Of a stretch of 35,000 nucleotides of DNA, positions 17,396-26,051 are shown piece by piece; position 1 is the stretch's first letter, and each line of letters starts with the position of its first letter. Both the position numbers and the translations under genes were made by a program. Source of the stretch: Anaeromyces robustus (Eukaryota; Neocallimastigomycota; Neocallimastigomycetes; Neocallimastigales; Neocallimastigaceae). Location: NCBI GenBank assembly GCA_002104895.1, contig MCFG01000318.1:1-35000 (forward strand). The letters are read 5' to 3'. Under the pieces are notes generated by a model that had not been told where the DNA came from, ran no database searches, and saw only the letters and a program-made list of their open reading frames with translations.

Positions 17396-19435
17396 TTAAA
17401 ATGCAAAAGATCCAGACTCTCTTCTATTATTTTCTATGTGTGGATATTGTTGTTGTAATATATATTGATATAAATCATCATCGTTGTTTTTACATATATC
17501 ATTTACTATTGAAAATCCTTCATGATTTATTGTATCTGAATCTGCTTTATGGTCTATTAGATACTTGAATAATGTAACATTTCTATCTTTATATACAAAG
17601 TAAAGTAATGTATTACCATATTTATCTTGAATATTAATATCTGCTCCATGATTAATTAAGTATTTTAATAACTCAATATTTCTATTTCTATACACTTGGA
17701 ATATTATAGAATTACCCTTTATATCTTTTTCATTCATTAAATATGGATACTTAACAATTAAATATTTAAATAAACCATATTTTTTATTTCTATAGGCATA
17801 ATATAGTATAGTATTTCCTTGATTTGTTTTATCATCCGGATTAGCACCATGGTCTATCAAATATTTAAATAATTCAATATTGCCACTTTTACATGAATAC
17901 ATTAATGCTGTATCACCTTCATCTCCCTTTTCATTACAATTAGCTTGATTTTCTATCAAAAATTTAACCAATTTAAAATCTCCATTTTCACACGCATACA
18001 TCAATACTGTATGACCACATTCATCTTTCTCATTAATATTTGCATTATTTTCAATTAAATATTTTGCTAACCCTAAATTACCTTTATCACATGCATTCAT
18101 TAATGGTGTAAAACCAACATTATCTTTTTCATTAATATTTGCATTGTGTTCTATAAGATATTTAATCATTTCTAAATCTTCTCTTTCACAAGCACACATT
18201 AATATTGTACTACCATTATCACTTCGAATATTAACATCAGCATTATGTTTAATTAAATATTTTACTATATCAATATAACCATTTTCATAAGCTGTAATTA
18301 ATGCTGTATCTCCATAAGTTCCTTTTTCATTTAGCATAGCTTGATGTTCTGTTAAATATTCTATAATTTCTTTTTTTCCATTTCTACATGAAATAACTAA
18401 AGCTGTATTATTTTTTTTATCCTTTTCATTAATATTTGAATTATTTTCAATTAATAATTTAATAATATCAAAATTCCCTATTTCACATGCATACATTAGT
18501 GCCGTATAATCATCATTATTTTTATTATTAACATTGGCATAATGATCAATTAAATATTTTACAGCATCTACGTTTTCTTTTTGAGTTGATATCATTAAAG
18601 CTGTATTACCTGAAACCTTTTCATTTTCATTAACATTAGATCCATTTTCAATAGCAAATTTTATTAAATCAATTTGATTTCCATTACATATTAATGTTAA
18701 AACTTCATTTCTTTTGAAAAAATTTTTGATAAAATCAATATTTAAATTATATAAAAATTTAACTATTTCATAATTATTTATTGAAATTGCATATAAAAAA
18801 AGCTGGTCATTGATGTTAGTTTCATTTAAAAATTTTTTCTTAGAATTTAATATAACATTATTTATTTCATTATTAGTTTTTTTCTGTTTATTTTTTGAAA
18901 AAATAATTAATTTTGATATTAAATCATTATTAATTTTTATATTTATATAATTAATTAATGTTTTAATCAAATAAAGTTTTTCTTTTTTAATTAATTCTTT
19001 TAACAAAAAAAAATTTATATTTCGTTGACTATCATTATCCCAAATCTTAATATTATGTTCTAATAAAAAAATTAATGATCTTGCATTCAACTTATCATGA
19101 GATAATAAATACAACAAGACATTTTCACCACTATTATTATAATAATTAATATTCACACCTTCTGTTAAAAAAAGTTCTGCAATGTCATATTTATGGTTTT
19201 CTAATGCTATAAAAAATGGTGTTTCATTCAAATTAGTTTCATAATTTAAATTAGTATAAAAACGTTTAATTATAAATTCTATTATAGAATATGAAATATG
19301 ATTTTTTAAACAAAATATTAATATATCAAAATTTGATTTATTAATATATTCTAAATCAATACCAATATTTTTATCAAAGAATTCGTAAATTTTGAAAAAA
19401 TTATCTGTTTTAATTGTATTTTGTATTACTTCCAT
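17396..19435 (-). CDS. Ankyrin-repeat protein, intronless
   Basis: 679 residues from a clear ATG, with no intron. Residues 1-230 hold a divergent N-terminal region with two or three weak ankyrin-like units (for example LNETPFFIALENHKYDIAEL). From about residue 240 to the C-terminus there are about thirteen contiguous 33-residue ankyrin repeats with the canonical G-TALM-AC--GN-E-VKYLIEHGAN-N pattern, the commonest turn being NINEKD. The last repeat is degenerate and the protein ends in a short tail. No signal peptide, membrane span, SOCS box, kinase or other effector domain is visible. Ankyrin stacks bind protein partners, so it is probably a scaffold or adaptor with an unknown partner. Large ankyrin families are common in gut fungal genomes, and repeat number is expected to vary between relatives. 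Confidence 0.93.
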   Translation of the reverse strand: MEVIQNTIKTDNFFKIYEFFDKNIGIDLEYINKSNFDILIFCLKNHISYSIIEFIIKRFYTNLNYETNLNETPFFIALENHKYDIAELFLTEGVNINYYNNSGENVLLYLLSHDKLNARSLIFLLEHNIKIWDNDSQRNINFFLLKELIKKEKLYLIKTLINYINIKINNDLISKLIIFSKNKQKKTNNEINNVILNSKKKFLNETNINDQLFLYAISINNYEIVKFLYNLNIDFIKNFFKRNEVLTLICNGNQIDLIKFAIENGSNVNENEKVSGNTALMISTQKENVDAVKYLIDHYANVNNKNNDDYTALMYACEIGNFDIIKLLIENNSNINEKDKKNNTALVISCRNGKKEIIEYLTEHQAMLNEKGTYGDTALITAYENGYIDIVKYLIKHNADVNIRSDNGSTILMCACEREDLEMIKYLIEHNANINEKDNVGFTPLMNACDKGNLGLAKYLIENNANINEKDECGHTVLMYACENGDFKLVKFLIENQANCNEKGDEGDTALMYSCKSGNIELFKYLIDHGANPDDKTNQGNTILYYAYRNKKYGLFKYLIVKYPYLMNEKDIKGNSIIFQVYRNRNIELLKYLINHGADINIQDKYGNTLLYFVYKDRNVTLFKYLIDHKADSDTINHEGFSIVNDICKNNDDDLYQYILQQQYPHIENNRRESGSFAF

Positions 19436-19659
19436 TATGTATTATAATTGTTTAATTAATGTATAATAGATGAGGAAAAAAAGAATTATAATAAATTATA
19501 TTACATTCATCTTTAGAAAAGAAAAAAAAAGAAAAGAAAGAAAATAAGGTATTTTATATAAATAAATAATTAAATAAAAAATTTTTCCTTCAACTATTTA
19601 TAGAAAGCAAATAAAATTAAATATTTATAGTGCTGTATACATATTTAATACATATATTA

Positions 19660-22946: not shown

Positions 22947-23042
<96 letters not shown>

Positions 23043-23084
23043 TTAATTAAATAATTAATTAATTAATTAATTAATTAATTAATA
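22938..23084. repeat. Compound TTTA / AATT microsatellite
   Basis: About 26 TTTA units followed without a gap by about nine AATT units. The AATT part is fully self-complementary and could form a hairpin. Confidence 0.88.
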
Positions 23085-23258: not shown

Positions 23259-24877
23259 TCATGAAGCGGATTTTAATATTGCACTCCCTCTATTTTGGTT
23301 GTTGGATTTAGTTGCAAGACTACCACTACCACAATTGCTATTATTATTGTTACGACTACTATGATTATAACCATATCCACTTTTCTTTTTAGAAATACAA
23401 TGTACAGATTCTGTGTAATGTAATTTAATTATATGATTAAATAATTTTGATTGAGTCTGATTTTCTGATAAAACTTTATGAACTTTTGGTTTATGAACCT
23501 TTTTCTTTTTGAATAATCTAATACCATACAAAAGTGTAAAATTATACATTGAGAGTATAACATATATACATTTAAATAATATAAAATACACTATATAATT
23601 TTTCATTTCTATATGATTCATTATATTAAATACAACAAAAAGTACTATATCACCAACAACAGTAAAAACTATATATCTTATATCATAATAAATACTTGAA
23701 AGATTCCATTCAAGGAATGATAAACAAAAAATAACCAATGATATTAAAAAGTTTGTAGAAAATAATAAAAACATAACAATATAACTAGAAAAATCATTTA
23801 AATAACAAGATTTAAAATTTTTTCCATTAGTAACTATTATTTCTTTAACAGAATATGGAGGTGAGAATATAGTTAATTCAATTGAAACAACGTTTAATAT
23901 CAAGAAAAATACAATTGAAATATATTTTTTTTCAAAAACCCATATTGATATATCGTTTTCTTGTGGAAAGTTTACAATTAATCTATATACCAATGGTGCC
24001 ATATTTAATGTATAACCAATAGATAAAAATGCTGATTTCATATGACATTTTAATGAACTTAAATCACCATATTCTAATATTCCAACCCATAACATAATAA
24101 TACATCCTATAACAGATATGAACCAAAATTCATGATCAATAAAATCGAAATTTAGTTTAAATCTTTCTGAATGAAGAAATAGTAAAGAAGAAAGCATGAC
24201 CAACGTACAAAAAGATACTACAATAATATATACTAAACCGACAGGATTATTATCTGTTGAAAGTGAAACATTATAAAACTTTAAAATATCATCTATATAC
24301 TGTACAATTTCATCCTCATCATGATCTTCATATAAATATTCATAAATATAATTTCTAAACATTTGTGAATATTTATCATATTCAGTAGTTTTATAGGTTG
24401 GTCTAGCAATAGGTTGAAAACTTTTAAAGAATTCACAATCTATAACTTTACAAACTTCTTCATCTTCATATAAACTAAGAATTCCAGAGAATAATCCTCT
24501 TTCCATAATAAATTTTTTCTGCACCTCCTTAGATGTCATATATGTAATTGCTTTAACTGCAGCTTCTCTTTTTTCCCCTTCAACATAATCTCCAATGCCA
24601 ATATTATATCCACCTATAGTTGTACCTGATAAACCTTTTTTATAACCTGGTAAAATTGTTCTAGGAATATCTCTTGAAGGTAAATACCAATATTTTAAAA
24701 AAATATAGTTACCGTCATATAATCTATCAACAGTTAATGTATCATCACTTAAAAATATTGTATCTTTATTATATAATTTTATATTTATAATAATTAAAAA
24801 AAATAAAAAAAAATAATAATAGTAATAATAATAAAATTTATTTTAGTCATTAATATGTTTTAAATAATTATTGTTAT

Positions 24878-24921
<44 letters not shown>

Positions 24922-26051
24922 CTGTTTGTGTATTTGTGTATTATTTTACCTGATGAAACTTCATCTTTAATTTTTTTCATCATTCTTAATGCATTTTTAG
25001 TTTCTTCACTTTTTATTTCTGGGAAAGGTGAATCAACTGATTCTCTAAAAGTATATATAAATTCATATATTGAACACATTCCAAGTTCCTTTCCTTATAA
25101 TTATAATATAATATTTTACAATATTACGAAAATTGAAAATATTTAATAATTATTAAAATTACTATATGTATTTTTTATATTTTACATACGTGGAAATAAA
25201 CCATTATATCCAATTAAATCAACATCTGGATTAGCTTTCTTTTCTGCTTCTATAATATATTTACTAGTTTCAATTAATTCATCCCATGTTTCAGGAAATG
25301 TTTTATTATAATTTTTTAATAATGCTTTATTTGTATATAAAACGGTATATTCAATTGATACTGGCTATTTATTCACATATATTATTGATTAATAAATAAT
25401 AAATATATGTTAATTTTAGATTTATTATAATATTATTTATATTATAAAATAATTAAAAAGATTATATATACTTACAAGTCCAACCCATTTATTATTAAAA
25501 ACACTCGTTTGAGATGCAATACCAGGTTTATACATTTCAATATGTTCTTCAGGTAAATGGTCTTTTAAATTTAATAAATATGGTTCAAACCTTTTTGCAT
25601 AAAGATTATCATAGAAATATATATCATATTTTTCAGATTTTTTTTTAAGAAGTGTTTCTACAGTTGATCCATAGCCACCAACATTAAATGTTGTATTATC
25701 TAATGTTAATAAATTAATATTTAAAGTAATATTTAAATTATGACTGTTTGAATATCTATTAAATTCATAGACTAATGGAGTATATATTTGACCATCTACA
25801 TTATGTGAATAAGCTAATGCATTAATTGTAATAGCATTTCCGAAATTTACTATTAATATAATGAAATAATAATATTAATATTTTTAATTATATAATATTA
25901 TATATATATTAGTTGTAATTATAAACTACTATCATAAATTATATTGTGGTATTCTATATATAAATAATTTTTTTCATAATAAATATACTAAAATCTTATT
26001 ACATAAGTTTAATATAAGCACTATAAAATATAGTAAATATTGTAATATCAT
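23259..26051 (-). CDS. Class C GPCR-like receptor with bacterial-type solute-binding ectodomain (five exons)
   Basis: Model complement(join(23259..24763, 24950..25093, 25190..25364, 25476..25849, 26003..26051)), 748 residues, every junction in phase. A short first exon supplies the only ATG and a signal peptide (about 1-22, cut after FGNA). Residues about 23-345 resemble bacterial ABC sugar-binding proteins (SBP class II). Examples are GLPVSIEYTVLYTNKALL, PETWDELIETSKYI, LIGYNGLFP, the YEFIYTFRESVDSPFPE hinge region and GGYNIGIGDYVEGEKR near its end. Seven membrane spans follow at about 421-444, 460-479, 487-511, 528-548, 573-598, 610-630 and 638-664. Cys487 at the top of TM3 and Cys567 in the second extracellular loop form the expected class C disulfide pair. 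The tail (665-748) is basic, then Ser/Asn/Gly-rich. Such fusions are reported as expanded in anaerobic gut fungi and are presumed nutrient sensors. Ligand and downstream coupling are unknown. Confidence 0.88.
24880..24925. repeat. TA/TG dinucleotide microsatellite inside a receptor intron
   Basis: A (TA)n run passes into (TG)n and TGTTTGTG variants. It sits inside the 186-nt intron (24764-24949) of the receptor gene. If read through, it would encode a spurious Tyr-Ile repeat. Confidence 0.9.

Follow-up and report, generated by a model that had tools for sequence, protein, structure and literature searches.

The gene described here lies in a 35,000-nucleotide window (the whole stretch of DNA that was analysed) of an anaerobic gut fungus and belongs to a large family of paralogous genes for surface receptors. 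Its predicted product joins an ectodomain of the substrate-binding protein (SBP) type to a class C seven-helix (7TM) module, and it is probably a flytrap-type sugar receptor that signals via a G protein, the sugar and the coupling being the putative parts of this assignment. An initial annotation, made from the letters of the window alone, had proposed a signal-like start, an SBP ectodomain and a class C 7TM module joined in one frame across five exons, and the splice model and Pfam searches presented below bear out this observation. Its interpretation stands in part: the SBP type of the head, the prokaryotic kin of the head and the host are upheld, while the implied novelty of the architecture is not, since such receptors were published in 2016 for the same fungal group (PMC5168858) and in 2012 for another phylum (PMC3251606). 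New in the present work are a count of the family (at least 92 places) and a set of trees, which suggest a pattern of single fusion and head release that goes beyond the repeated fusion of PMC5168858.

Structure of the gene and its product

The gene runs from position 26051 to position 23259 on the minus strand, where a predicted splice model joins five exons at GT..AG borders into 748 codons plus a stop; the coordinates, strand and exon count of the initial annotation are thereby reproduced. The features of the gene are the following.

23259..26051, minus strand: whole gene, encoding an SBP type II ectodomain and a class C 7TM module, 748 aa (splice model with GT..AG borders, Pfam)
26003..26051, minus strand: exon 1, which carries the start codon and the larger part of the signal peptide (aa 1-16) and is less certain than the other four (splice model)
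25476..25849, minus strand: exon 2, end of the signal peptide and first part of the SBP N-lobe, aa 17-141 (splice model; paralogous exons in the genome)
25190..25364, minus strand: exon 3, aa 142-199 (splice model; intron-sized jump at about 141/142 in 29/35 scorable genes)
24950..25093, minus strand: exon 4, aa 200-247 (splice model; jumps near 199 in 29/42 genes and near 247 in 37/44)
23259..24763, minus strand: exon 5, a single open frame for the second SBP lobe, the linker, all seven helices and the C-terminal tail (open frame, splice model, Pfam)
24276..25832, minus strand: SBP-type ectodomain, about aa 23-410, split by three introns (Pfam SBP_bac_8 and SBP_bac_1; PDB matches to SmoF, MalE3 and TMBP)
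24435..24452, minus strand: C352-x4-C357 pair (invariant in 26/26 near-complete fungal heads; missing from four aligned bacterial SBPs)
23535..24248, minus strand: class C 7TM module, which spans aa 420-657 and includes C487 and C567 (PF00003 above cut-off; invariant cysteines)
23262..23525, minus strand: C-terminal tail, partly low-complexity and Ser/Asn-rich, aa 661-748 (translation)

Exon 1 (16 codons) was assigned from the open frame, the splice borders and hydrophobicity only, and a paralogue, L039, whose match to the window protein spans residues 1-161 unbroken, has no intron at the place of the exon 1/exon 2 border. Residues 1-22 look like a signal peptide when judged by eye.

Both halves of the spliced protein are recognized by Pfam profiles above their curated cut-offs. 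The head is matched by SBP_bac_8 (aa 105-351, E 8.8e-13, 49.1 bits, cut-off 27) and by SBP_bac_1 (aa 70-185, E 4.4e-11, 43.8 bits, cut-off 26), and the helices are matched by 7tm_3 (PF00003; aa 420-657, E 3.9e-9, 37.0 bits, cut-off 33.5), which gives 39.9 bits for this gene in the genome-wide profile search. When exon 5 is taken alone, 7tm_3 is found at E 1.7e-9 and SBP_bac_8 at E 0.065, below significance. In the hydropathy profile a peak at the N-terminus rises above a threshold of 1.5, as do six helices out of seven; TM3 stays below it, yet lies inside the Pfam match.

The comparison with metazoan class C receptors (mGlu, CaSR, GABA-B), which have a bilobed ligand head in their general plan, shows that the 7tm_3 module and the cysteine pair before TM3 and in loop 2 are shared, but that the metazoan head is of the ANF type (type I) whereas the head of the window gene is of type II. 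The NCD3G nine-cysteine domain was not found on the spliced protein in a Pfam search at E up to 1; it is missing in GABA-B as well. An ANF-type head was rejected, because PF01094 (ANF_receptor) has no match in the gene or anywhere in the 70-Mb genome and the SBP profiles score above cut-off; the same PF01094 search gives matches in 7 of 14 control genomes. The proposal that the head belongs to another lineage than the metazoan flytrap is thus supported, and the outcome that would have spoken against it, a best alignment to ANF-type domains, is absent from the gene and from the genome as a whole.

The conservation of the protein was evaluated on 44 sequences including that of the window, 14 others having been dropped (among them L001, L003 and four without a 7TM module). 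The two cysteines that had been singled out as conserved, C487 before TM3 and C567 in extracellular loop 2, are each invariant (44/44), as are G467 and W600. In class C receptors such a cysteine pair joins TM3 to extracellular loop 2.

That the two halves might be separate genes, as the initial annotation had considered, is disfavoured because the SBP second lobe, the linker and all seven helices lie inside the single exon 5. A mis-joined pair of genes was rejected, given this unbroken exon and the repetition of the same order at 53 places of the genome, the window included. Bacterial contamination was also rejected, on the grounds of intron places common to paralogues, AT-rich DNA and the neighbouring genes.

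The G+C content of the window is 7-29% per kilobase. The neighbours identified by Pfam are a DEAD-box helicase, an acidic ribosomal protein, a PX protein and the start of a phospholipid flippase; three of the eight window frames given to Pfam had no match, and no ABC importer gene was found among the eight frames. The window also holds a large ankyrin-repeat protein in one open frame (17396-19441, minus strand, 681 aa) and a long run of the tetranucleotide TTTA between the helicase and receptor genes (22955-23045).

The receptor family in the genome

The genome searched is a 70.2-Mb assembly of 769 contigs, the window included. The profile CBM_10 (fungal dockerin) has at least 150 matches in it (150 scored of 683 candidates) and none in 14 control genomes, and these dockerins, together with the G+C content of the window, identify the organism as an anaerobic gut fungus (Neocallimastigomycota), with which the rumen-fungus host suggested beforehand agrees.

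A genome search with PF00003, in which 150 of 187 candidates were scored, gave at least 127 matches, and the window head used as query gave at least 159 (104 of 579 candidates scored). Among the matches listed there are at least 92 places that correspond to the second lobe, the window included, and at 53 of these 92 a PF00003 match stands directly behind the second lobe on the same strand, at a distance of -8 to 51 bases. The remaining 39 listed places have no Pfam 7TM match behind them; when ten of these were read, six proved to have a 7TM module by tblastn and four did not. One of the 92 listed places, on contig C346, carries six internal stops. The window head was taken as the query for this count because exon-by-exon Pfam, which yields just seven SBP_bac_8 matches in the genome, misses even the window's own head.

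When the family is approached from the side of the helices, tblastn finds a match to the window's head at 23 of the 30 top-ranking 7tm_3 loci. Among these 30, L008 and L023 have a gap upstream and match just the last 60-80 residues of the window's head, and L002, L003, L004 and L006 have no match to it by tblastn. L001 is matched by tblastn over residues 265-666 of the window protein at 20.6% identity; its second lobe is probably related to that of the window gene, and the joined L001 head has no SBP match in Pfam. L001, L002, L003 and L006 are 7tm_3 receptors with heads that either do not belong to the window's family or are marginal to it; a C-x4-C motif can be made out by eye in L001 and L002, and SBP_bac_8 matches L003 weakly, at E 0.002, which is under the cut-off. 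L004:13-2349 encodes a class C receptor in one open frame, with no family recognized for its head and a weak EGF-like stretch before TM1. At two further loci, C343:9454-10860 and C343:14896-16284, SBP_bac_8 is found above cut-off ahead of 7tm_3, and neither locus is among the listed matches of the window head. Candidate signalling partners are present: the genome gives 30 G-alpha and 19 RGS profile matches at the level of exons.

Some heads occur without helices. Contig C493 encodes three SBP proteins (L036, L037) that lack a 7TM module, form one clade and each show at least two of the shared intron-sized jumps; a fourth matched place lies on the same contig. The intronless locus L031:1375-3459 (C690:154874-156958) encodes an SBP head, which is 42% identical to the head of the window gene, followed by leucine-rich repeats and a hydrophobic C-terminus, again with no 7TM module. 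NCBIfam effector models match the repeat part far under their cut-offs, and these matches reflect the repeats.

Origin of the heads and history of the family

The head of the window gene matches the solved structures of SmoF (7nbz, 2.4e-15), MalE3 (6dtq, 5.2e-14) and TMBP (1eu8, 8.4e-14) over about 300 residues, and a fourth match is to 6jaz, an ABC periplasmic substrate-binding protein (3.4e-12). SmoF, MalE3 and TMBP are binders of sugars and glycosides, TMBP being a trehalose/maltose-binding protein, and on the strength of these matches the head is predicted to have the two-lobed type II fold. It differs from the three proteins in the added C-x4-C pair and in being tethered to seven helices. 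The assignment of the head to the binding-protein kind of ABC transporters, as first proposed, is therefore upheld by Pfam, by the PDB matches and by its prokaryotic sugar-binding relatives.

These relatives are distant. Of 72,556 plasmid records, 211 match the head, none over 80% of the query, and the best, from Sinorhizobium, has 26% identity; four plasmid-borne SBPs that were aligned to the head are 20-23% identical. A search of bacterial genomes with the window head alone yielded no relative, and a search with the fungal head alignment yielded 79 loci, in which long matches are at most 26% identical and a few short ones higher. Viral contigs searched with query A2 yielded no relative. In the collections searched, the significant relatives of the head, as recognized by such sequence matches, are prokaryotic sugar-binding proteins only. 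Four of seven plasmid loci are annotated, and one of these four, with a related SBP, sits in a cluster with ThuA, a trehalose-utilisation gene; since the neighbours of the bacterial SBPs differ (ThuA, 6-phospho-beta-glucosidase and L-fucose isomerase are among them), no single sugar is indicated.

The history of the heads was examined in two trees, which is also the comparison with bacterial SBPs that the initial annotation had recommended. Of 58 sequences gathered from the genome, nine duplicates, fragments or reverse-strand matches were dropped, and the 26 of the remaining 49 that cover more than 90% of the head were used. The quick tree has 72 rows, 46 of them bacterial (40 from the 79 loci and six from the seven plasmid loci, one frame being too long); eight of its end branches are long, in one case two long branches meet, and the letter make-up of 37 rows is uneven. 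The careful tree keeps 32 of the 46 bacterial rows and is rooted on four Bacillota rows chosen by the analyst, with uneven make-up in 32 rows. The 26 near-complete fungal heads all group together in the careful tree, as a single clade (100/100) apart from the 32 bacterial rows.

The simplest reading of these sequence comparisons is that the head is of bacterial origin. That it is instead of old eukaryotic descent is rather unlikely. In favour of such descent, the best long bacterial matches are only about 26% identical, the fungal clade sits on a long stem (1.42-1.55 changes per site over both head trees, 1.42 in the careful one), the nesting of the fungal heads among bacteria depends on the chosen root, and this genome is the sole eukaryote searched for heads. 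Against such descent, the quick tree rooted on Enterobacter places the fungal clade together with 31 bacterial rows apart from 15 further bacterial rows (97 SH-aLRT), and SBP-coupled ABC importers have so far been described in prokaryotes only, according to PMC5168858.

The 7TM tree, with 49 rows, gives a parallel picture for the helices. The 42 modules of the window's family are united in a single clade (100 SH-aLRT), and L001-L004 and L006 stand outside it; L008 and L023, which were left without a group beforehand since a gap in the DNA precedes them, have modules that fall inside the family. Introns were scored as length jumps between aligned residues (48 rows used, 10 dropped), a procedure by which a few jumps are missed where a match ran into the intron, and intron-sized jumps recur at three common places (29/35, 29/42 and 37/44 scorable genes). 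The occurrence of one head clade, one 7TM clade and common intron places favours one fusion and joint duplication for the window's family. Three C8 genes branch first in the 7TM clade (85 and 89 SH-aLRT), and in the quick head tree the first branch is the only C8 head of sufficient length (96 SH-aLRT), an early place that the careful tree, in which the base of the fungal clade does not resolve, does not confirm.

Repeated fusion of SBP heads to class C modules, which PMC5168858 suggests for gut fungal class C receptors generally, is an unlikely explanation here. It would accommodate the weak SBP_bac_8 match of L003 and the unassigned head of L004, and likewise the two C343 loci, with SBP_bac_8 above cut-off before 7tm_3, that are missing among the listed window-head matches; within the window's family, however, there is one clade of 26 heads and one of 42 7TM modules, and the intron places are common. 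Judged from the trees and intron places, the most likely history of the window's family is that a fungal ancestor acquired a bacterial SBP gene, that one fusion followed, and that head and helices then duplicated jointly.

The heads without helices bear on what may have followed. The C690 head falls in a supported tree group with ten receptor heads (97/92), and a tree that groups the 22 receptor heads without the four free heads is rejected (p-AU 0.008, in a test set up after the quick tree had been seen). It follows that at least some of the free heads, which occupy two places in the tree (C493 and C690), appear to have lost the 7TM module. A full sequence of events can be offered tentatively, as a reconstruction that is about as open to doubt as to belief: a bacterial gene of the TMBP/SmoF kind would have passed to an ancestor of the gut fungi, would have been fused once to a 7TM module, and would have radiated to some 90 or more receptors, some heads then being freed by 7TM loss to become free sugar-binding proteins and an intronless head with leucine-rich repeats.

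Proposed function and its significance

Receptors of this design have been described before. PMC5168858 (Seppala et al. 2016) reports, for Neocallimastix, Anaeromyces and Piromyces together, 107 class C receptors, of which nearly half have type II SBP heads that are related to sugar-uptake proteins and none has an ANF head, and it also describes free SBP homologues; fungal group, head and 7TM class are the same as in the window gene, which is a further member of this set, no difference of kind having been found. PMC3251606 (Krishnan et al. 2012) reports SBP_bac_1 in eight glutamate-family receptors of Allomyces macrogynus and ANF in most fungal members; SBP_bac_1 is common to these receptors and to the window gene, but Allomyces belongs to another phylum, Blastocladiomycota. 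Among the papers listed in searches of open-licence literature, none on the ligand of gut fungal SBP class C receptors was found.

In the mechanism proposed here, the type II head would lie outside the cell, connected to the class C seven-helix module by a short linker without a nine-cysteine domain. A soluble plant-derived sugar, the most likely kind of ligand, would close the two lobes in the manner of a flytrap, the lobe movement would be passed on to the seven helices, and the helices would then activate a heterotrimeric G protein.

The conservation of the putative pocket can be evaluated by comparison with TMBP, in which the positions matching D92, D97, W273, 300 and 146 presumably hold the sugar. 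In 48 rows (10 dropped), D92 is kept in 31/31, D97 in 29/32 and W273 in 37/45, and position 300 is Y or F in 34/45. Position 146, which is Asp in the four aligned bacterial SBPs, is E in the window gene and D in just 16/42 rows. The literature search found no paper on the pocket residues of TMBP and, by title, none on the structure of SmoF.

The two halves of the protein are not conserved to the same degree. In all 29 comparisons with more than 300 head positions (of 43 possible) the head is better conserved than the 7TM module, with means of 46% and 30%. Crude dN/dS values are below 1 for both halves in six hand-picked pairs (about 0.3-0.7 for the head and 0.35-0.8 for the 7TM module), the 7TM value being higher than that of the head in four pairs, about equal in one and slightly lower in one. 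The stronger conservation of the heads suggests that binding is what selection holds most firmly, and the less conserved, divergent 7TM module could mean that signalling is relaxed.

If signalling were not the main role at all, then the head might serve in surface capture or adhesion, binding released sugars or polymers so that these are concentrated or so that the fungus stays attached to fibre or methanogens, with the helices mainly as an anchor. This is improbable, but several observations are in keeping with it: the three SBP copies and one copy with leucine-rich repeats that lack a 7TM module, the lower conservation of the 7TM module, and the higher transcript levels that SBP homologues and class C GPCRs show on Avicel and xylan in the presence of a methanogen partner, as reported in PMC8665504, where the function is called unknown and sugar-polymer binding or physical contact is speculated. 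It is opposed by the invariance of C487, C567, G467 and W600, by the dN/dS below 1 of the 7TM module in the six pairs, and by the G-alpha and RGS matches, for none of which a plain anchor has an obvious need.

The interpretation as a sugar receptor coupled to a G protein, with the family history set out above, has in its favour the three profiles on one protein, the PDB matches, the missing ANF domain, the size of the family, the head and 7TM clades with their common intron places, the invariant cysteine pair, the G-alpha and RGS matches, the partly kept pocket side chains, the dN/dS values below 1 and the one ThuA cluster. Weighed against it are the differing bacterial neighbours, the varied position 146, the divergence of the 7TM module (37.0 against a cut-off of 33.5 bits) and its lower conservation, the long stem, the uneven letter make-up of many rows, the root-dependent nesting and the unplaced C343 loci.

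Plant fibre is what gut fungi live on, and an obvious candidate for sensing the sugars that their enzymes release is this orphan receptor family. The pattern of single fusion and head release would provide a definite history, open to testing in other fungi. If that history is true, then the radiation to some 90 or more receptors would be a fungal counterpart of the chemoreceptor expansions of animals.
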